DNA from: Proteiniphilum propionicum
Lineage (GTDB): Bacteria > Bacteroidota > Bacteroidia > Bacteroidales > Dysgonomonadaceae
DNA length: 64,000 nt
NCBI RefSeq assembly: GCF_022267555.1
Contig: NZ_CP073586.1
Location: forward strand, 372,001 to 436,000
Reading direction: 5' to 3'
Shown: piece by piece, positions 18,531-63,478 of the stretch
How the letters are laid out: each line of letters begins with the position of its first letter
Position numbering within the stretch: position 1 is the first letter of the stretch
Program-made: the position numbers and the translations under genes
The notes under the pieces: generated by a model
What the model was told of the DNA's origin: nothing
Seen by the model: the letters and a program-made list of their open reading frames with translations, nothing else
The model's database searches: none

Positions 18531-21374
18531 TTAAAATATTATTTTCATACCTAACGAGAATGATCTGTAATTAGGTTCACTACCTATTCTTAGCTCTTTT
18601 ATATCTCTATATTTAGAAATAGTCAGAAGATTAGAAGCTGCAAAATAAAAATTCAGGCCTTTCATAAACAGTGATTCCGCTATTTTAGAAGGAAATTGAT
18701 AAGTCAGCTGTACTCTTTGCAAGGTAAAATAATCATCTTTGTAAAGCCAGAAAGTTGAATTGTGATAGTTATTTGTACTTTCCATTGTAGTAAGGCGCGG
18801 ATAAGTTGCCGTTGCTTTAGTTTCTTCTGTCCAACGCCCCAATAGGTAATCTGAATATTTCTTGTCTCCATCTGTCCGGTAATAGCTGCCATTAATATAT
18901 GAATCAGCCCCAAGCTGCCCATTACCAATAGTAAACAGTGAAATATTCTTATAAGACAACAGTAGATTCAACCCGTAAGAGAACGGGGCCTGTGCGCGTC
19001 CGATTGGAACTTCATCATCTTCGTTCACAACTCCGTCGTTATTTTGGTCAACATACTTTATATCACCCGGCTTCACAATCCCGAACGCCTGGAATGCATG
19101 ATTAGAAATATCATTTTCATCCGTGAAGAACCCCTCGGCTTCCAATCCGAAGATAGCATCAACCGGATGGCCTTTACGATACTGATAATCGTTGGCGTAT
19201 ATTTCATCTTTTTTCTTCACGTCAGATGTTGTATATAAAGCATTGGCTCCCAAAGCGATCTCCCAATCTTTATATTTGTGATTAAAGGACAATCCGACTT
19301 CAGCTCCCCTGTAAGCATTTTCTCCAAAATTTACATACGGTACGAAATTCGAATAAAAACTGGGAAACATTGCTTTAAAAAAAGTGACCTGATCTGAATA
19401 GTAGCTGTAAAAAACATTTGCTTCCAATCCGAGCATCCGGTTGAAGAAGAGGCCTTCGATACCTAAATTCAAATCCTTCCGCTTTTCAAAACCTAAATTT
19501 TTATTACTTCCGTAAAGAGACCTCACCCCTTGTTGCATCCATGCTTTTTCTTGCCAGGAATAACTTCCGCTGTATTCGTATGGATTAATATGGAAATAGA
19601 AACCATTTATCCCGGCATCGCTGTTGATGATGCCTCCGGTTAATTTAATCTTTAAATAATCGATTGAATTCAGTCGTGTAATAAAATCCTCCGAACTGAT
19701 CAACCAGGCAAACCCGAAAGTTGGCGAAAAAGCATTTCTGGAACCTTCGGCTAATTTCACCGAATGCGTATAAGCACTGCTAAAGTCAAATATATACTTT
19801 TGATTATAAATGTAATTTAGCCTCAACCCTAAATTGGAGTTTTTGTTACTCTGATAATCTTCCGCAACCTTATATAGATTACCAATTCCCAACAATGAAG
19901 CAGATAACTGATGGCGTTCATTCAATGTTCTTTTATAATCAAACATACCATAGAAGCCTATCTTTCGTTGATAACTGGCATCTCTAATTTTTTGGACTCC
20001 AGGCTTCGTGTCATTACCATATTTTGAAAGCTCTACAATTGTATCGCCTTCCCATTTTTTCGCTTCGTATACTGCATAAGTATTCTCTATATACTGATCA
20101 TAGAGTGACAAGTAATCAAAACTGAAATTGGTATGAAAAGATAAACCTTCTAACACTTTATTTAAATCAACCTTAATCCTGTTATTGAAAGATAGATAAT
20201 TTTGTACATTTACGTTTTCTCCACCAAAATAGGTATCGGCAATCGGGTTGGTTAAATAATTTTGTGTTCCACCAAGGATGTATTTCCCATCTACATCGTT
20301 TCTGCGGGATGACAACAAAGTTTCTCTCAATTCCCGGCTTATGTTGTCTATAGGAAGCAGTGGCGTGAATAAATTGGGCTTCAGCGTTGCAGCTCCGGCC
20401 CAATAATCTGAAATGGACCCTTTCTCATTTGTTATTACGGCAACGGCATCTATAGCCCCTGTAATAAAGGAATTTACTTTCAAATCTACATTGCCTCTGA
20501 TATTAAATCTGTTCATTTGATTCTTCTTCCCTTCACCAAAATTTAATATGCTTCCAATCTGTTCCCAACCTACATTTGAATAGTAAGTTGCCACATTGTT
20601 ACCTCCAGAAAATTCAGCCATCGTTTTGAAAAACGGTTTGAATGATCTGAGATATTCCCGAGAATAATAATCAACATTGGGATACATGTATAAATTGCTT
20701 CCACTACGGTATTTAGCTATCAATTCGTCGTCATACAATTTTGACAAGCCATCATTCTGACGTGCTTCATTATACAAAGTCATATAATCAGCCGATGATA
20801 AATAATTGGGTAGTATTGAGGGTGTCGAAATACCGTAATAACCGGTAACGTTAATCTGTTTTTTTCTGGCATTGCCTCTTTTTGTAGTGATCTGAACCAC
20901 TCCATTTACAGCTGCACTACCATATAGTACCGACGAATTGATATCTTTCAATACAGTTACCTGTTCTACTTCAGCAAAGTTGATTGTCGATATATCCCGC
21001 GGCAAACCATCAACTATAAATAAAGCTTTACCGATACCCCGTATATTGCTAAAACCCAGTAAGCCGGGAATACGAGCAAGCATCGCATCAGAAGTAAATT
21101 GAACATTGTCATTTTTTAATATTGGTTCTGAATTAATAAAACTTACCGATCCTACAATATTTTCGCGCCTTATTTTTCCAAAAGCAATATTTACAGTATC
21201 ATTTAGGATATCATTCGTAGAAATAGCTGTTCCATTGACAGGTAAAAATTGAACTTCATTCACCTGTTCAGTAATATTTATTGTTTTTTCGGCAAATGCC
21301 TCTTCGTAAAAAAATAAGGTTATAGAGACGAACAAGGCTAATGCTCTGAAATATTTATTATTCATTTTTCGCAA
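18531..21374 (-). CDS. SusC/RagA-type TonB-dependent transporter lacking the N-terminal extension (second pair)
   Basis: A 947-residue outer-membrane beta-barrel importer. A signal peptide (about residues 1-28) is followed almost directly by the plug domain (about 70-170: LARIPGLLGFSNIRGIGKALFIVDG, then SSVLYGSAAVNGVVQITTKRG). The barrel runs to a C-terminal Phe (YRSFSLGMKIIF). Unlike the first SusC of this locus, it has neither the STN signalling domain nor the carboxypeptidase-regulatory-like domain, and it is over 200 residues shorter. It therefore probably transports without signalling to the anti-sigma factor. A start three codons later (MNNKYF) is equally possible. It is 21 bases downstream of the first SusD. 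Confidence 0.92.
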   Translation of the reverse strand: MRKMNNKYFRALALFVSITLFFYEEAFAEKTINITEQVNEVQFLPVNGTAISTNDILNDTVNIAFGKIRRENIVGSVSFINSEPILKNDNVQFTSDAMLARIPGLLGFSNIRGIGKALFIVDGLPRDISTINFAEVEQVTVLKDINSSVLYGSAAVNGVVQITTKRGNARKKQINVTGYYGISTPSILPNYLSSADYMTLYNEARQNDGLSKLYDDELIAKYRSGSNLYMYPNVDYYSREYLRSFKPFFKTMAEFSGGNNVATYYSNVGWEQIGSILNFGEGKKNQMNRFNIRGNVDLKVNSFITGAIDAVAVITNEKGSISDYWAGAATLKPNLFTPLLPIDNISRELRETLLSSRRNDVDGKYILGGTQNYLTNPIADTYFGGENVNVQNYLSFNNRIKVDLNKVLEGLSFHTNFSFDYLSLYDQYIENTYAVYEAKKWEGDTIVELSKYGNDTKPGVQKIRDASYQRKIGFYGMFDYKRTLNERHQLSASLLGIGNLYKVAEDYQSNKNSNLGLRLNYIYNQKYIFDFSSAYTHSVKLAEGSRNAFSPTFGFAWLISSEDFITRLNSIDYLKIKLTGGIINSDAGINGFYFHINPYEYSGSYSWQEKAWMQQGVRSLYGSNKNLGFEKRKDLNLGIEGLFFNRMLGLEANVFYSYYSDQVTFFKAMFPSFYSNFVPYVNFGENAYRGAEVGLSFNHKYKDWEIALGANALYTTSDVKKKDEIYANDYQYRKGHPVDAIFGLEAEGFFTDENDISNHAFQAFGIVKPGDIKYVDQNNDGVVNEDDEVPIGRAQAPFSYGLNLLLSYKNISLFTIGNGQLGADSYINGSYYRTDGDKKYSDYLLGRWTEETKATATYPRLTTMESTNNYHNSTFWLYKDDYFTLQRVQLTYQFPSKIAESLFMKGLNFYFAASNLLTISKYRDIKELRIGSEPNYRSFSLGMKIIF

Positions 21375-23182: not shown

Positions 23183-26100
23183 TTAAAATGTTAGGTTAAT
23201 ACCAAAATTTATTCTTTTAACTGTAGGATAAGCACCTGTATTTGCAGACCCTCCAGACCATGCAGCCTCCCTGTCATCGGGAAGTTTTGACCAAAAAAAC
23301 AAATTATCTCCATTCACATACATCCTAAGAGAGGTTATTCCCGTATTTTCAAGCCATCTATTTTCATTTCTGTTAAAAAGATAAGCCAATTCAACTGTTT
23401 TAAGACGGATATAAGAGGCATCATATAAATAATAGTCCCCAATATTCTCTCCCCGCGTCTTCCATCTGGGCAGAAAAGAGGTAGCATTTTGATTCTCTTT
23501 TGACCAATAATCCCTTACATGATCAAAAACCACGTTTGTGTTTGCTGCAAAATTCATTAAAGGTACCACGCGCGATGCATTTGTCACGCCATACAGCTGC
23601 GCCATTACGCTAAAATTCTTATATTCAAAACCTAGTGAACTGTTAAAAGAATTTTGAGGTACCTCGGAGTAACCATAAGGAACGGCGTCAAAACTATTTA
23701 TAACTCCATCAGCGTTAAAATCGAGCAGGTCATAATATCCGGGGAGCATAGCTAAATCATTTGTCTCTGTCGGGACACTCGCGTATACTTCATCCCAGTT
23801 ATTGTAAAATCCAGTATTTAATTGCGTTTTTATTTGGCCTATGGGGAATCCCTGTTTTTTTTGGTAATCGGGAAACAATACCGGATCATCTGCAAATTTA
23901 ATTTCATTTTTCGCATGAGTCAAAGCGAATGATGACCACAAGTACAACTCACGGAATCGTTTATTAAACTTTAGCTCCAGTTCGTAACCGCCCGAATTTA
24001 CCTGTCCAACATTTGCGGGAGCAGGTGTAGCACCAAAAAAATCAGGAATGCTTCTACCGCCCCCCGCAAGTAAAATATCAGTCCTTTTTTCTTTGAAATA
24101 CTCAAAATTAACAGTAACTAGATTATCTAACAGCCCTACTTCAGCTCCGTAGTTCTGCTTTTGAGCTTTTTCCCAGTGAATATCCGGATTCCCAACGGCC
24201 AATTCTTTATACCACAAATAAGGGCTTGTACTCGATATATTATCAACCAGTCTCGAAGCTCCTCCGTATGAATACCGAGTGGAATATAACCATCTGGGGG
24301 CGTTTACCCTGTCGTCACCCACATATCCCAAGCTATAGCGTAATTTCAGCTTGTTCATCCAATCTATATTGAAAAACTTTTCACTCGAGATATTCCATCC
24401 AATACCTATCGAGGGGAAGAAGTCGAATCTATATTTTGGGCCGAATTGTTCTGAACCGTTATATGCACCATTTATCTCCAATAAATAACGGGTGTCATAA
24501 TCATAGGTAGTCCTAAATACCCAATCTTCACGGTAATTTTTAAACATATCCCCGCTTGCATATTCGTCTCTCGTAAAAACTCCCATGGCAGTTATATTAT
24601 GCAGTCCGAATTGCCGTAAGTAGTTTAATTGAATTTGGTACTTCAATCTTCGGGTTACTCCAGAGCCTATGCTTTCAGGACGAATTGTCCAGGGTTGCTG
24701 AACCCAGTCATACTTATATAATCCTCCAATAGGATAATAGGTGGTATATTCACTTGGATCCTGATCGGGTCCGGTATATAACATCGGATTGATAACTGCA
24801 AAAGGTGTATTGCTCGTATCCATAAGAGGCCATACTGAATTCGTAGAATCATATATTCCTCCTTCACCTGTAATGGTATTGTCATAGTTTAATACAGCCT
24901 TTGTACTTAATCCCTTTGTAATAAAATCGAGCTTTTGGATTAATTCAACATCAATATTCAGTTGTGTCCGCCTTAGTTTTCTAACTCCTACATTATTAAC
25001 TACCGACACAGGATTATACAGGTTTCCTACCAATGGTGTCCATCCCCAACGCCCATCGGGATACTGAGGTAAAAACACATCGGGGGGCATAAAATAAATG
25101 GACTGCCACATCAGATAGTCATGACTACCTTCCGTACCATTATAATTTGAATTTTTTTGGCTGTAATACCCGGAGAGATTCATTTTCATATTGGTGGTTT
25201 TGGTAACCTGAAAATCGAGGTTGCTCCTGAAATTAAAACGATCAAAATTATAATTGGGATTGTATCCTTTATGATTATCATAGTCCTTAAACATATCTCC
25301 TTCATGCAAGTATGCCAAAGAACCGAAAAAACGTACAAATTTATTCCCGCCTGAAGCACTTACCGTAGCCTTATGGGAAAATCCCACATCTTTAAACATC
25401 GCTTTTTCCCAATCTACATTCGGATATATCATCTCGTAATCCTTTGGTCGCGGTGATTTATATCGGGTTGAAATTTCATACGGGATATAATCCAACCATG
25501 AAGGTTCATTTAGTGGTGTTTCACGTTCAATAGCTAGATTTCTTATCTGTATTGCATCAAAAGATTCTAACGTTTCAGGCACTTTTGACAACATTTGAGC
25601 TGTAGTATTATATGAAAATGAGATGTTTGTTTTCCCCTCTTCTCCTCTTTTCGTAGTTATCAATATCACTCCATTAGCTCCTTTTACGCCAAAAACAGCA
25701 GTGGCCGACGCATCCTTTAATATGGATATACTTTGAACCTCATTGACATCCACATTGCTCATATCTCTTTCAACCCCATCAACCAGGATCAATGGCTGTC
25801 CACCATTCCACGTATTCTGCCCACGTATAAAAATTGAAGTAGCACTTTCACCTTTAACACCTCCCGGTTCTCCCGAAGATGTAATTGTGACTAACCCGGG
25901 GAGTTGACCGGCCAAAGCCTGTTTAAAATCAGAGGCATACCCTTTTCTCGTCAATTCCTTAGACGAGGCCTGAGAAATAGCACCTACCACACTTTCTTTC
26001 CTTTGTACACCGTAACCCACTGCTACCACTTCCCCCAAACTTATGGTCTCTTCTCTCATGGTTATATTGATAGTGGTTCTATTTCCAACGGTAATCTCCT

Positions 26101-26707
26101 GTGCATACATGCCGACAAACGAAAAAATGATAACAGGACTACCGGGGATATTATGCAAAATATAATTACCATCAATATCTGTTGTTGTGCCCATCGATGT
26201 CCCTTTTACAACGACTGTTACCCCAGGTAGAGACTCACCTCGTTCATCAATAACTTTTCCTTTTATTGTTTTTCCTTGTTGTTGAGGTTCAATTTTCAAA
26301 GGTACTGGAGCTGTTGCAATTTGTATATCCTCTCTCTTGTTTTTTACATAAATCGTTATTTGCTTGCCAATGATACTATAATTTAAGTCTCTGTCTTTTA
26401 GCAGTTGGGTTAAAATAGTTTCTATTGTTTTATTTTGAGTATCGATGGTTACCCGATCTCTCATTTTAATTTCAACATCTTCATTAAAAATAAAAACATA
26501 GCCTGTCTCTTTCTCTATCTCAAAGATAGCATCCTTAATCGCGACATTTTTTAGATTCAGGGAAACAACATTACTCTGCGAAAAAATATTTTCCCCTAAT
26601 ACACAAAAAGTACACAGAAAAAAGAATAATGTAGAGATCTTCATGATTTTTAGAATTCTATTATATCTTTTCGGTATAATAATTTCATCGTTAATTTTTT
26701 GTTTCAT
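23183..26707 (-). CDS. SusC/RagA-type TonB-dependent transporter with STN signalling domain (first pair)
   Basis: A 1174-residue outer-membrane importer. A hydrophobic export signal at about 22-43 ends Ile-Phe-Ser-Gln. A STN secretin/TonB short N-terminal domain (about 46-121: LNLKNVAIKDAIFEIEKETG) is followed by a carboxypeptidase-regulatory-like domain (about 147-218), a plug (about 225-345) and a barrel ending in Phe (KRINFGINLTF). The STN domain is what touches FecR-type anti-sigma factors, so this transporter is the likely sensor for the FecR/ECF pair directly upstream. A later ATG at 26644 is possible, but the long leader with a basic IPKRYNRILKIMK segment is common in this family. A candidate antisense RNA lies over its 5' leader. 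Confidence 0.94.
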   Translation of the reverse strand: MKQKINDEIIIPKRYNRILKIMKISTLFFFLCTFCVLGENIFSQSNVVSLNLKNVAIKDAIFEIEKETGYVFIFNEDVEIKMRDRVTIDTQNKTIETILTQLLKDRDLNYSIIGKQITIYVKNKREDIQIATAPVPLKIEPQQQGKTIKGKVIDERGESLPGVTVVVKGTSMGTTTDIDGNYILHNIPGSPVIIFSFVGMYAQEITVGNRTTINITMREETISLGEVVAVGYGVQRKESVVGAISQASSKELTRKGYASDFKQALAGQLPGLVTITSSGEPGGVKGESATSIFIRGQNTWNGGQPLILVDGVERDMSNVDVNEVQSISILKDASATAVFGVKGANGVILITTKRGEEGKTNISFSYNTTAQMLSKVPETLESFDAIQIRNLAIERETPLNEPSWLDYIPYEISTRYKSPRPKDYEMIYPNVDWEKAMFKDVGFSHKATVSASGGNKFVRFFGSLAYLHEGDMFKDYDNHKGYNPNYNFDRFNFRSNLDFQVTKTTNMKMNLSGYYSQKNSNYNGTEGSHDYLMWQSIYFMPPDVFLPQYPDGRWGWTPLVGNLYNPVSVVNNVGVRKLRRTQLNIDVELIQKLDFITKGLSTKAVLNYDNTITGEGGIYDSTNSVWPLMDTSNTPFAVINPMLYTGPDQDPSEYTTYYPIGGLYKYDWVQQPWTIRPESIGSGVTRRLKYQIQLNYLRQFGLHNITAMGVFTRDEYASGDMFKNYREDWVFRTTYDYDTRYLLEINGAYNGSEQFGPKYRFDFFPSIGIGWNISSEKFFNIDWMNKLKLRYSLGYVGDDRVNAPRWLYSTRYSYGGASRLVDNISSTSPYLWYKELAVGNPDIHWEKAQKQNYGAEVGLLDNLVTVNFEYFKEKRTDILLAGGGRSIPDFFGATPAPANVGQVNSGGYELELKFNKRFRELYLWSSFALTHAKNEIKFADDPVLFPDYQKKQGFPIGQIKTQLNTGFYNNWDEVYASVPTETNDLAMLPGYYDLLDFNADGVINSFDAVPYGYSEVPQNSFNSSLGFEYKNFSVMAQLYGVTNASRVVPLMNFAANTNVVFDHVRDYWSKENQNATSFLPRWKTRGENIGDYYLYDASYIRLKTVELAYLFNRNENRWLENTGITSLRMYVNGDNLFFWSKLPDDREAAWSGGSANTGAYPTVKRINFGINLTF

Positions 26708-26719
26708 ACATTTGTCATG

Positions 26720-26817
26720 AATTTTAGTTTACGAAATAATTAGGATTATCTTGTGAATTAATCTTCTTCCGGTCGGGAGGTGCGGCAACATCTTCCGGCC
26801 TACTTTTTTGGTTTTAT
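26720..26817 (+). ncRNA. Candidate antisense sRNA opposite the susC leader (DonS-like position)
   Basis: On the + strand, TACATTTG at 26707-26714 matches the -7 consensus TAnnTTTG, with TTTC about 20 bases upstream. A strong hairpin follows at 26771-26800: GGTCGGGAGGTG, loop CGGCAA, CATCTTCCGGCC. Its 12 base pairs include three G-U wobbles. A run of six T follows at 26804-26809. On the minus strand those wobbles become A-C mismatches, so the fold fits RNA made from the + strand. This RNA of roughly 90 bases would be antisense to the leader between fecR and susC. Cis-encoded repressor sRNAs such as DonS occupy that place in Bacteroides PULs. Expression and exact ends are unproven. Confidence 0.45.
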
Positions 26818-26849
26818 TTATGGGTCCATAGGCAAATTAATTTTTATTG

Positions 26850-28019
26850 TTATCTTATTACTTTGATAACATCATTTTCAATAATATATTCCTGTCCGGT
26901 CAAAAGAGAAATGGATGATACAACATCCCGTAGATTTTCCGAGAGATATAGTTTTCCGGTAATTTTTTTATCACTTTCAATATTTTCGAAAGAAACATTG
27001 TAATACCGCCCTACTTTTTTGAATAATTCTGAAACCGGAGTACTGTCAAACATGAAAACTCCATTTACCCAGCTAGTATAGAAAGAAACATCTACTTTTT
27101 CTGCATAAATACTTCCATCACGGAATTCAACCATTTCGTTAGGATTCATCATAATTGACTTGTTATCTTTGGTTTTCACCTGTACTTTTCCATTTACCAA
27201 AACAACCGAGGATGTTTTATCTAAAGTATATGCCGACACATTAAAACGGGTCCCGAATACCTGAACATCCAGATCCGGAGTATGGACAATAAAGGGTTGT
27301 TTGCTCAATTGAGCAACATCCAGATATATTTCTCCTGCAAGTTTTATATCGCGCGTTTTCCCGGAAAAATTTGTTGGAAATTCCAACTCCGTTCCCGAGT
27401 TTATCCAGACCTTGGTTCCATCAGCCAGGATAAGAAAAGAGCGCTTTCCGTTGGGAACAATAAGCTTGTTGGTTTGAACATTATTCACCTCAAGCGTCTT
27501 TTCGATATCGGCACTATCGGTATATGAGATTTGCCCATCATTTAGATGAACCGTAACATTTTGATTCAGGACTATCTCTTTTCCTCCCGCTAACAGTTTC
27601 ACCTCCTGTTCGGGAAGAGTTTTACCAATAACTTCAGCACTTATTGCCATCATTGAGTTATTGTCTTTCCTAATAAAATATAAAGTAGTAATAAGAAATA
27701 ACAAAGCGATAGCGGCAGCACTCGAAATGTAATAAATAATCCTTTTCTTCCTTTTCTTTTTGTACAAGACACTTTCAATAATTTGTTTATATAATATATC
27801 GGTATCGTTGAAAATCCTTTTATTAATTGCTATTTTATCAAATATTTCAATTGAAATTTTAAATTCTTCTTCAAGATCTGGATTTTCGTGAATAAAAGAG
27901 GACCAAAAATCTTCCAGCTGAGACGTTCGAGTCAACCTCCATTGGATAAATTTTTTGTTTTCCAGGAAAAAAGGATTGTATATATATTTACTCTCTTTCA
28001 TTTTTTTAGATTTATTCAT
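26850..28019 (-). CDS. FecR-family anti-sigma factor
   Basis: A 389-residue single-span inner-membrane regulator. The cytoplasmic N-terminus (1-88) binds the sigma factor. A basic stretch (KKKRKKR) precedes the membrane helix at about 93-116. The periplasmic FecR domain follows (about 185-280: NGKRSFLILADGTKVWINSGTELEFP, then FIVHTPDLDVQVFGTRFNVSAY). The C-terminal DUF4974/STN-like segment is at about 315-389. It receives the signal from the STN domain of the SusC encoded just downstream and controls the ECF sigma factor encoded 104 bases upstream. This is the standard cis-acting regulatory pair for PUL1. Confidence 0.92.
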   Translation of the reverse strand: MNKSKKMKESKYIYNPFFLENKKFIQWRLTRTSQLEDFWSSFIHENPDLEEEFKISIEIFDKIAINKRIFNDTDILYKQIIESVLYKKKRKKRIIYYISSAAAIALLFLITTLYFIRKDNNSMMAISAEVIGKTLPEQEVKLLAGGKEIVLNQNVTVHLNDGQISYTDSADIEKTLEVNNVQTNKLIVPNGKRSFLILADGTKVWINSGTELEFPTNFSGKTRDIKLAGEIYLDVAQLSKQPFIVHTPDLDVQVFGTRFNVSAYTLDKTSSVVLVNGKVQVKTKDNKSIMMNPNEMVEFRDGSIYAEKVDVSFYTSWVNGVFMFDSTPVSELFKKVGRYYNVSFENIESDKKITGKLYLSENLRDVVSSISLLTGQEYIIENDVIKVIR

Positions 28020-28123: not shown

Positions 28124-28741
28124 TTACAAATAGTGGTAATAGGTAAGAGCCACTAAAATAACAAATAATTGCCTTTCCGGATCTTTATTCATAGATCTTA
28201 AATGCTCAATACTCCGATGAACAAGCCTTCTTGCCGAATTATAATTTATTTCCATAAGGATAGCAATCTCCTCATAATCCAGCTCTTGCATATATCGTAA
28301 ATAAATAATTTCTCTTTGGCGTGGTGTAAGCTCATTCAATAGATTTTCAACGGTTTGTTTTAGTTTTTCAGTATCTTCACGGCTAATAAGAGATTCTAAT
28401 GTTGTTATTTCGGTTGAAAATGGTATATTTTCAAAAAAAGAATCTGAAATTTTACAATTCCTTTTCTGAATATTAAAAAGTTTGTTTCTTAATGATCTAA
28501 ATAAATATGAAGTTAAATTTCTTACTTTAAGGAACTTGCTCTTATCAATAAGAATCTTACAAAATACATCATGCACCGCATCCCTGCATGTCTCTTCATC
28601 GAATCCCAGACTTAGCCCATAAGATAAAAGGTCATTAACATAAAAATTGTAGATGAAAGAAAAAGCATCATATCCGTTTTTATTTGCTAAAAATTCCTTC
28701 CAATATTTATTAACTACAATATACCTGTTATTTTCCTGCAT
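28124..28741 (-). CDS. ECF RNA polymerase sigma-70 factor, Bacteroidota FecI-like
   Basis: A 205-residue ECF sigma factor. Region 2 lies at about 25-95, with the core-binding and -10-recognition segment ETCRDAVHDVFCKILIDKS. Region 4 lies at about 135-185, with LTPRQREIIYLRYMQELDYEEIA and the DNA-reading helix NYNSARRLVHRSIEHLR. It is expected to drive the SusCD operon of PUL1 when FecR releases it. It is preceded on the minus strand by an exact -7 box at 28793-28800. It ends with a short hydrophobic tail (LFVILVALTYYHYL). Confidence 0.92.
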   Translation of the reverse strand: MQENNRYIVVNKYWKEFLANKNGYDAFSFIYNFYVNDLLSYGLSLGFDEETCRDAVHDVFCKILIDKSKFLKVRNLTSYLFRSLRNKLFNIQKRNCKISDSFFENIPFSTEITTLESLISREDTEKLKQTVENLLNELTPRQREIIYLRYMQELDYEEIAILMEINYNSARRLVHRSIEHLRSMNKDPERQLFVILVALTYYHYL

Positions 28742-62497: not shown

Positions 62498-63478
62498 ATG
62501 AAAGAAGAATTTGAAAAATTGATATATGATTTTCTTTCCGGAAACATTGCCAAGAAAGATCTACACAAGTTGAATGACTGGGTGCACGCAAGCACGGAAA
62601 ATAAAAAACATTTTGAAAAGCTGAAACACATCTGGCTTTTATCTTCCGGGCATGATACTAACCATTTTTATGCTGAAGGTGCATACGCCAGATTTTTGGA
62701 GCGGATTCGCAAAAAGGAGGTTACTAAAAGAAAGGATAGGCTTGTTAGATATGCCGGGTATGCAGCAGCTATAATTTTACTATTGGTCACTACCACACTA
62801 ATAACCAACGTATTTAAGGACACTCCTGAAAATTTGCTTATCTCTGAGGTATATGCCCCTCGAAAATCTAAATTAAAAATGAAGCTACCCGATGGTTCCG
62901 TTGTTTGGTTGAACGCCGACTCTAAATTATCATACTCTGAGAAATTTGGCAGGAATAACCGTAATATTCAATTAACAGGAGAAGGATACTTCGAAGTACA
63001 ACATGGAGAATATCCATTTATTGTACAAACAGACTCCACACAAATTAGAGTTTTAGGCACAAAGTTCAATATCAAGAATTACAGTGACGAGGATTATATG
63101 AAAATTTCGCTGCTGGAGGGGTCTATAGCTTTATCAGGTGCTAATAAGGAGTACATAATGAAACCCAATCAAACAATATCTTTTAATAAAGTAAATCAGA
63201 TTTATACACTGGCTGAAAACGCCGACTATGCTGAGCAATGGATTAATAATAAAGTTTTTTGGGATGAAATCCCTTTATTAACAATTTCCAAAGAGCTCGA
63301 ACGACAGTTTGATGTGGCATTTTCATTTGAATCTGAGGGCCTTGAGAGTTTAGTTTTCCACGGGAGCTTCATTATTGAAACAAATAATCTGGAAGAGATA
63401 CTTGGAATAATGGCAGAAACAAATAAATTTAAGTATTCAATTAAAAAAAACAAAGTTTATATCTTTAATGGCAAATAA
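62498..63478 (+). CDS. FecR-family anti-sigma factor (PUL2)
   Basis: A 326-residue single-span anti-sigma factor. The cytoplasmic N-terminal helix bundle is at 1-80, with the membrane helix at about 86-106 (YAAAIILLLVTTTLITNVF region). The FecR domain is at about 120-215 (SKLKMKLPDGSVVWLNADSKLSYSEKFG, then YPFIVQTDSTQIRVLGTKFNIKNY) and the C-terminal DUF4974 segment at about 250-326. The STN domain of the PUL2 SusC should bind its periplasmic part. It has no susC directly downstream on its strand; the regulated operon is divergent. Confidence 0.92.
   Translation: MKEEFEKLIYDFLSGNIAKKDLHKLNDWVHASTENKKHFEKLKHIWLLSSGHDTNHFYAEGAYARFLERIRKKEVTKRKDRLVRYAGYAAAIILLLVTTTLITNVFKDTPENLLISEVYAPRKSKLKMKLPDGSVVWLNADSKLSYSEKFGRNNRNIQLTGEGYFEVQHGEYPFIVQTDSTQIRVLGTKFNIKNYSDEDYMKISLLEGSIALSGANKEYIMKPNQTISFNKVNQIYTLAENADYAEQWINNKVFWDEIPLLTISKELERQFDVAFSFESEGLESLVFHGSFIIETNNLEEILGIMAETNKFKYSIKKNKVYIFNGK

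Follow-up and report, generated by a model that had tools for sequence, protein, structure and literature searches.

A predicted two-hairpin RNA antisense to the leader of a FecR-preceded susC homologue in Proteiniphilum propionicum

Between a FecR-type anti-sigma gene and the first of two susC homologues in a PUL of Proteiniphilum propionicum lies a gap that probably encodes a small plus-strand RNA, antisense to the susC leader, which would repress susC below a sigma-driven threshold. The component parts, the two-hairpin fold of the plus strand and the tie to susC genes preceded by FecR are read from the sequence itself. PULs with an ECF sigma/anti-sigma pair help decide which glycans Bacteroidota eat. 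Among the matches listed in openly licensed literature, their antisense layer so far rests on Bacteroides; it is now linked, with in-genome controls, to susC genes preceded by FecR in three families, one of them of another order.

The locus lies in a window of 64,000 nucleotides (the whole stretch of DNA that was analyzed). The putative RNA is opposite to, and overlaps, the leader of a susC homologue in a PUL with a sigma/anti-sigma pair; the flanking genes had been said to run on the minus strand throughout, and the susC, FecR and sigma genes are indeed found there. The features are as follows:

18531-21374, minus strand: second susC of the same PUL, with a 31-nt gap, without a preceding FecR and without any antisense feature
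23183-26707, minus strand: susC homologue, first of two in the PUL, with STN, carboxypeptidase-regulatory and Plug domains; putative antisense target
26707-26714, plus strand: TACATTTG, a TAnnTTTG match, candidate -7 box of a housekeeping-type (sigma-ABfr) promoter
26719-26809, plus strand: predicted antisense RNA of ~90 nt, its start inferred from the box and its end from the T-run
26719-26766, plus strand: 5′ hairpin of the predicted RNA, identified by folding and conserved in alignment A1 (below); absent from the earlier note
26771-26809, plus strand: intrinsic terminator, a 12-bp stem-loop (26771-26800) and a T-run (26804-26809)
26827-26833, minus strand: GCCTATG, putative -10 element of an ECF-dependent susC promoter
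26850-28019, minus strand: FecR-type anti-sigma gene (Pfam FecR and FecR_C)
28124-28741, minus strand: ECF-type sigma factor gene (Sigma70_r4_2 above cut-off, Sigma70_ECF slightly below)

A domain search of the PUL finds two susCD pairs, a BT_3987-like protein, GH20 and a GH123 N-terminal domain; the last three suggest amino-sugar glycans. Elsewhere in the window, for a FecR domain at 62858-63127 (plus strand), the 2.2 kb tested hold no SusC that passes the cut-off; in the whole genome, a SusC follows 15 of 18 FecR matches.

Terminator, promoter box and fold of the predicted RNA

The earlier note had described a 12-bp hairpin at 26771-26800 with a run of six T. Both are present; the stem holds 7 G-C and 3 G-U pairs around a loop of 6, and the run lies at 26804-26809. 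None of 2000 dinucleotide shuffles of the gap reaches the score of the hairpin with its T-run, and the terminator is one of 7 strong terminator-like sites in the 64 kb. A looser scan gives 7 terminator-like sites in 10 kb versus 7.0 expected, and the stem at 26771-26800 is the longest among them. The proposal that G-U pairs, which turn into A-C mismatches on the opposite strand, favor a plus-strand structure is borne out by the folding energies of the hairpin (-18.6 kcal/mol on the plus strand versus -7.3 kcal/mol on the minus strand). Taken as a whole, 26719-26808 (plus strand) folds into two hairpins at -32.4 kcal/mol (z = -5.6; 0/200 shuffles as good); folding of the susC leader strand (26820 to 26660, minus strand) is no better than that of shuffles (z = 0.15).

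The exact TAnnTTTG box noted earlier at 26707 does stand there (26707-26714, plus strand) and overlaps the susC start codon (CAT, 26705-26707) by one base; the consensus is the one quoted in the available portion of PMC7366714. Exact matches number 75 in the window versus a mean of 67.5 in 20 shuffles, and the box alone was rejected as evidence because it is about as frequent as in shuffles. By eye, no -33 element (TTTG at the usual spacing) was found upstream of the box, the closest TTTG (26698-26701) being too near; a -7 box alone, lacking this element, counts against the explanation by an antisense promoter. No Rfam 15 family reaches its gathering score in the window, the interval 26500-27000 gives sub-threshold matches only, and 20 loci searched at E ≤ 0.1 likewise; Rfam relatives were therefore rejected.

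Conservation and distribution of the fold

Conservation was assessed in two alignments. A1 is a plain MAFFT alignment of 21 distinct Proteiniphilum sequences from 31 loci, which leaves out 2 duplicates, 1 non-homologue and 7 loci whose best hairpin was farther off, low-scoring or absent. A3 comprises 43 hits from 43 chosen sources, excludes weak wrong-strand matches and, being fitted to the model, leans toward it. In A1, 98.0% of the cells of the two-hairpin structure are paired, double changes occur in 8 of 21 pairs and none of 500 shuffles has as good a covariation score. Changes in the 9 consensus pairs of the 5′ hairpin are mostly one-sided (double change in 2/9). For the terminator, the covariation check called for in the earlier note does not refute the proposed RNA: compensatory double changes occur in 6 of the 12 pairs in A1 and in all 12 in the 43 sequences of A3 (76 cells in all, 98.1% paired; 0/500 shuffles as good, in an alignment fitted to the model). 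Neither an ATG nor a reading frame is conserved across A1, and a small peptide was rejected on these grounds.

G-U pairs occupy 64 cells of A1 (31 in the 5′ hairpin and 33 in the terminator), and A-C occupies 0. The 5′ part of the A3 sequences has a mean z of -2.67 versus shuffles on the plus strand (36/43 under -1.5) and of -0.28 on the minus strand (4/43 under -1.5). A strand-symmetric hairpin search, in which G-U and A-C are weighted alike, favors the plus strand by 48 to 3, 19 to 1 and 28 to 5; in the window copy it scored the 5′ hairpin best, not the terminator, and it found no hairpin over threshold in locus L045 and in 4 of 28 genus loci. As judged from the sequences, the plus strand is the folding strand. 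The asymmetry between G-U and A-C is a marker of which strand folds and not a special excess of G-U, an unusual enrichment relative to ordinary terminators having been rejected (0.156 versus 0.122 of stem pairs, p = 0.09).

Two features of individual copies may be recorded here. In five loci (L019, L021, L026, L027 and L028), a further stretch of ~60 nt or more separates the 5′ part from the terminator; by eye, the inserts of these longer variants are related and partly self-complementary. In A3 and the phylum loci, the tips of many terminators resemble ATGTTGCnGCAT across families, beyond what a terminator needs. In the three-genome set described below, TG...CA tips occur in 13 of 30 antisense terminators versus 4 of 29 others (p = 0.012, for a motif picked post hoc), and a special tip of this kind was set aside as weak, the motif having been selected after the data were seen.

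A BLAST search with the gap matched 21 of 61 genomes, counting the own genome: 20 from this genus and one from outside it, which matches at the FecR end only. Within the order, model R1 reaches 16 of 198 genomes at E ≤ 0.001 (again counting the own genome); model R2 reaches 21 of 395 genomes of a phylum sample whose other members were listed in part, all 21 in the same class; these low fractions are due to strict filters and divergent sequence, and real absence may also contribute. With laxer filters, R2 matches 38 of 39 Proteiniphilum genomes (match counts only). Outside the own genome, 15 of 18 R1 loci have both a SusC, judged by BLASTP against that of the window, from an ATG at the CAT and an adjacent Pfam FecR; L051 has a SusC-like frame (by eye) that runs off the contig edge, L054 has a FecR adjoining a broken frame and L048 has neither. 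L048 and L141 are alike model hits in two genomes of genus g61, away from any susC/FecR junction; they could represent a relative of the RNA that stands by itself, or a chance match. The 24 newly fetched R2 loci of the phylum sample show a SusC from the CAT in 22 cases and a FecR-like ORF in 23; some genomes of other orders also have model hits, mostly at FecR-susC junctions. The predicted RNA has a median length of 89 nt over 45 loci, 34 of which fall within 78-128 nt (predicted ends).

R2 finds 4 copies in the own genome at E ≤ 0.001; in the genus search with laxer filters it finds up to 12 in one relative and 5 in genome G021. The own genome also encodes two small RRM_1 proteins (466516-466728, plus strand; 3745674-3745883, minus strand), possible partners of such RNAs; RbpB of Bacteroides is a protein of this type. 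Multiple copies and candidate partners would suit a trans-acting, FopS-like sRNA family that works on several susC messages, its place opposite its own susC being secondary, and FopS sRNAs are described in the available part of PMC11697453 as repressing SusC translation in B. thetaiotaomicron. We nonetheless consider such a family quite unlikely: the copies examined face their own susC leader, to which they are fully complementary; the own-genome copies share little, by eye, except the box and the stem outline; and the 5′ hairpin is kept here, whereas the same part of that source gives FopS a single-stranded 5′ stretch.

Association with FecR-preceded susC genes

A control within genomes covered three of them: the own genome, G141 from a different family of the order and G574 from a different order of the class. 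SusC proteins were those over the TIGR04056 cut-off, and terminators were sought up to 215 nt from the start, on both strands and without the model. All 48 of 48 susC genes over the cut-off were used in the own genome, 43 of 53 in G141 (4 at contig starts, 5 with truncated regions and 1 lacking a start codon being left out) and 45 of 47 rows in G574 (two halves of one interrupted frame being left out). Since G141 and G574 were picked for their R1/R2 hits, the rates seen in them do not represent a random genome; the comparison inside each genome is independent of this choice.

An antisense terminator is present at 30 of 54 FecR-preceded susC genes versus 1 of 82 others (pooled Fisher p = 2.8e-14; such pooled values, here and below, overstate independence because FecR-type SusCs are related). 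By genome, the counts are 10/15 versus 0/33 (own), 16/30 versus 0/13 (G141) and 4/9 versus 1/36 (G574); a looser hairpin threshold gives 10/15 versus 2/33 in the own genome. CATAnnTTTG at an in-frame start codon is found in 33/54 versus 0/82 (pooled Fisher p = 1.2e-17). Of these 54 genes, 24 have both box and terminator, 6 the terminator alone, 9 the box alone and 15 neither (p = 0.002). The two antisense features, box and terminator, are associated with susC genes that have a FecR gene ahead of them. As 24 of the 54 are without an antisense terminator at the threshold, the RNA is not obligatory.

Sense terminators are seen in 0 of the 54 FecR-susC gaps versus 1 of 82 others (pooled Fisher p = 1). 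This count bears on the possibility that there is no antisense RNA here at all and that the signals come from chance, from an element of the susC leader or from a terminator that serves the sigma/anti-sigma operon on the minus strand; in its favor, the box by itself is not significant. The minus-strand hairpin is weak and no U-run follows its stem, so a sense terminator of that operon was rejected; with conservation favoring the plus strand as well, we regard the absence of an antisense RNA as very unlikely.

On the other side of the terminator, CATARGC (GCYTATG on the message strand) occurs in 31 of 54 FecR-preceded versus 3 of 82 other susC gaps (pooled Fisher p = 7.7e-13), and in 37 of the 42 loci with both it lies 16-33 nt past the terminator stem (median 26). 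It is a candidate -10 element for PUL ECF sigma factors, a role suggested by its position and distribution. In the available portions of two sources the motif does not match the published ECF element, which is a CGT box in PMC9723704 and TGTT in PMC12596196. GCCTATG as a short leader ORF was rejected, the frame being inconsistent by eye. In 36 listed sequences, chosen for having the motif, GCYTATG on the message strand follows an A-rich tract.

If GCYTATG is the -10 element, the susC message would begin just outside the 3′ end of the antisense RNA; the RNA would then cover almost all of the leader, and its polymerase would stay out of the susC promoter. The two putative promoters face each other ~115 bp apart, as expected if polymerase collision were what matters and the RNA were a by-product. 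Such transcriptional interference is unlikely in our view: the terminator would halt antisense transcription short of the candidate susC promoter, at a rather fixed distance (16-33 nt in the loci counted above), and interference would not need the fold of the RNA, yet the fold is conserved. A terminator short of the susC promoter therefore favors a brake at the RNA level over promoter interference.

Proposed mechanism and relation to known systems

Our inference of an RNA-level brake, which extends to transcription, both start sites, in-cell pairing, repression and threshold logic, is as follows. A housekeeping-type promoter would start the RNA ~12 nt upstream of the susC start codon, heading away from susC, and transcription would end after ~90 nt at the intrinsic terminator, just inside the putative 5′ end of the susC message, making the RNA complementary to almost the entire susC leader. 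Under little glycan signal, steady RNA would pair with leaked susC transcripts, and pairing would block translation, expose the transcripts to cleavage, or both. Once the ECF sigma factor is freed by its anti-sigma factor, susC transcripts would outnumber the RNA and the PUL would turn on. The housekeeping-type box suggests that the RNA is steady, so the sigma factor would have to out-produce it, which would set a threshold.

The tie to FecR-preceded susC genes, combined with a conserved fold, argues against these antisense RNAs being noise; the fold has no Rfam 15 match, and by way of it the RNA can be found with a covariance model and tested in many species. A brake of this kind is known from gut Bacteroides; in more distant relatives, the predicted RNA seems to be a long-standing piece of that switch whose structure has been conserved. 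We suggest tentatively, as a possibility somewhat short of even, that there is one ancient two-hairpin antisense RNA family of Bacteroidia, commonly present as a third part of the ECF sigma/FecR/SusC switch, in which G-U pairs (A-C in the message) confine structure to the antisense strand and leave the susC leader open for translation. Among the matches listed in openly licensed literature, none concerns such antisense RNAs outside Bacteroides, and neither the conserved two-hairpin fold nor the wider spread was found in print.

DonS RNAs are located between an anti-sigma gene and susC, and DonS-type PULs are typically under a sigma/anti-sigma pair. DonS and the PUL-associated cis-antisense RNAs of Bacteroides were reportedly the subject of Cao et al. 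2016, and El Mouali et al. 2024 is said to be work on Segatella copri. The available text of PMC7366714 places DonS in a family of cis-antisense RNAs, 78-128 nt long, that are divergent to susC homologues and lower them, in PULs that target mucosa-derived glycans; it lists ten further RNAs of DonS orientation in B. thetaiotaomicron, five of them northern-validated, predicts extensive folding for selected Bacteroides cis-antisense RNAs and cautions that random promoters may explain some antisense RNAs. Excerpts of PMC10994844 count 32 PUL-associated antisense RNAs in B. thetaiotaomicron, which both correlate and anti-correlate with susC; between them, these two partial sources report detection of Bacteroides antisense RNAs of like layout by RNA-seq and northern blot (PMC7366714, PMC10994844).

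Part of PMC11697453 describes FopS as an sRNA family with a single-stranded seed at the 5′ end and an intrinsic terminator at the other, acting in trans on several PULs; of 14 members, 9 fall in the intergenic class and 4 in the antisense class. The predicted RNA shares with FopS its approximate size, the intrinsic terminator end and a link to susC translation, and differs in keeping a 5′ hairpin where FopS has its trans-acting, single-stranded seed. Its assignment as DonS-type in Proteiniphilum is supported by described architecture and length, not by DonS sequence or fold: like DonS, it would lie opposite a susC homologue, antisense to the leader, with similar length and a sigma-ABfr-type box; unlike DonS, it comes from another family, has a conserved two-hairpin fold and is predicted from sequence. 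CopA is a structured cis-antisense RNA of plasmid copy control, and we know of no sequence relation between it and the predicted RNA. The two have in common stem-loops and full complementarity to the target leader, CopA differing in that it serves plasmid copy control.
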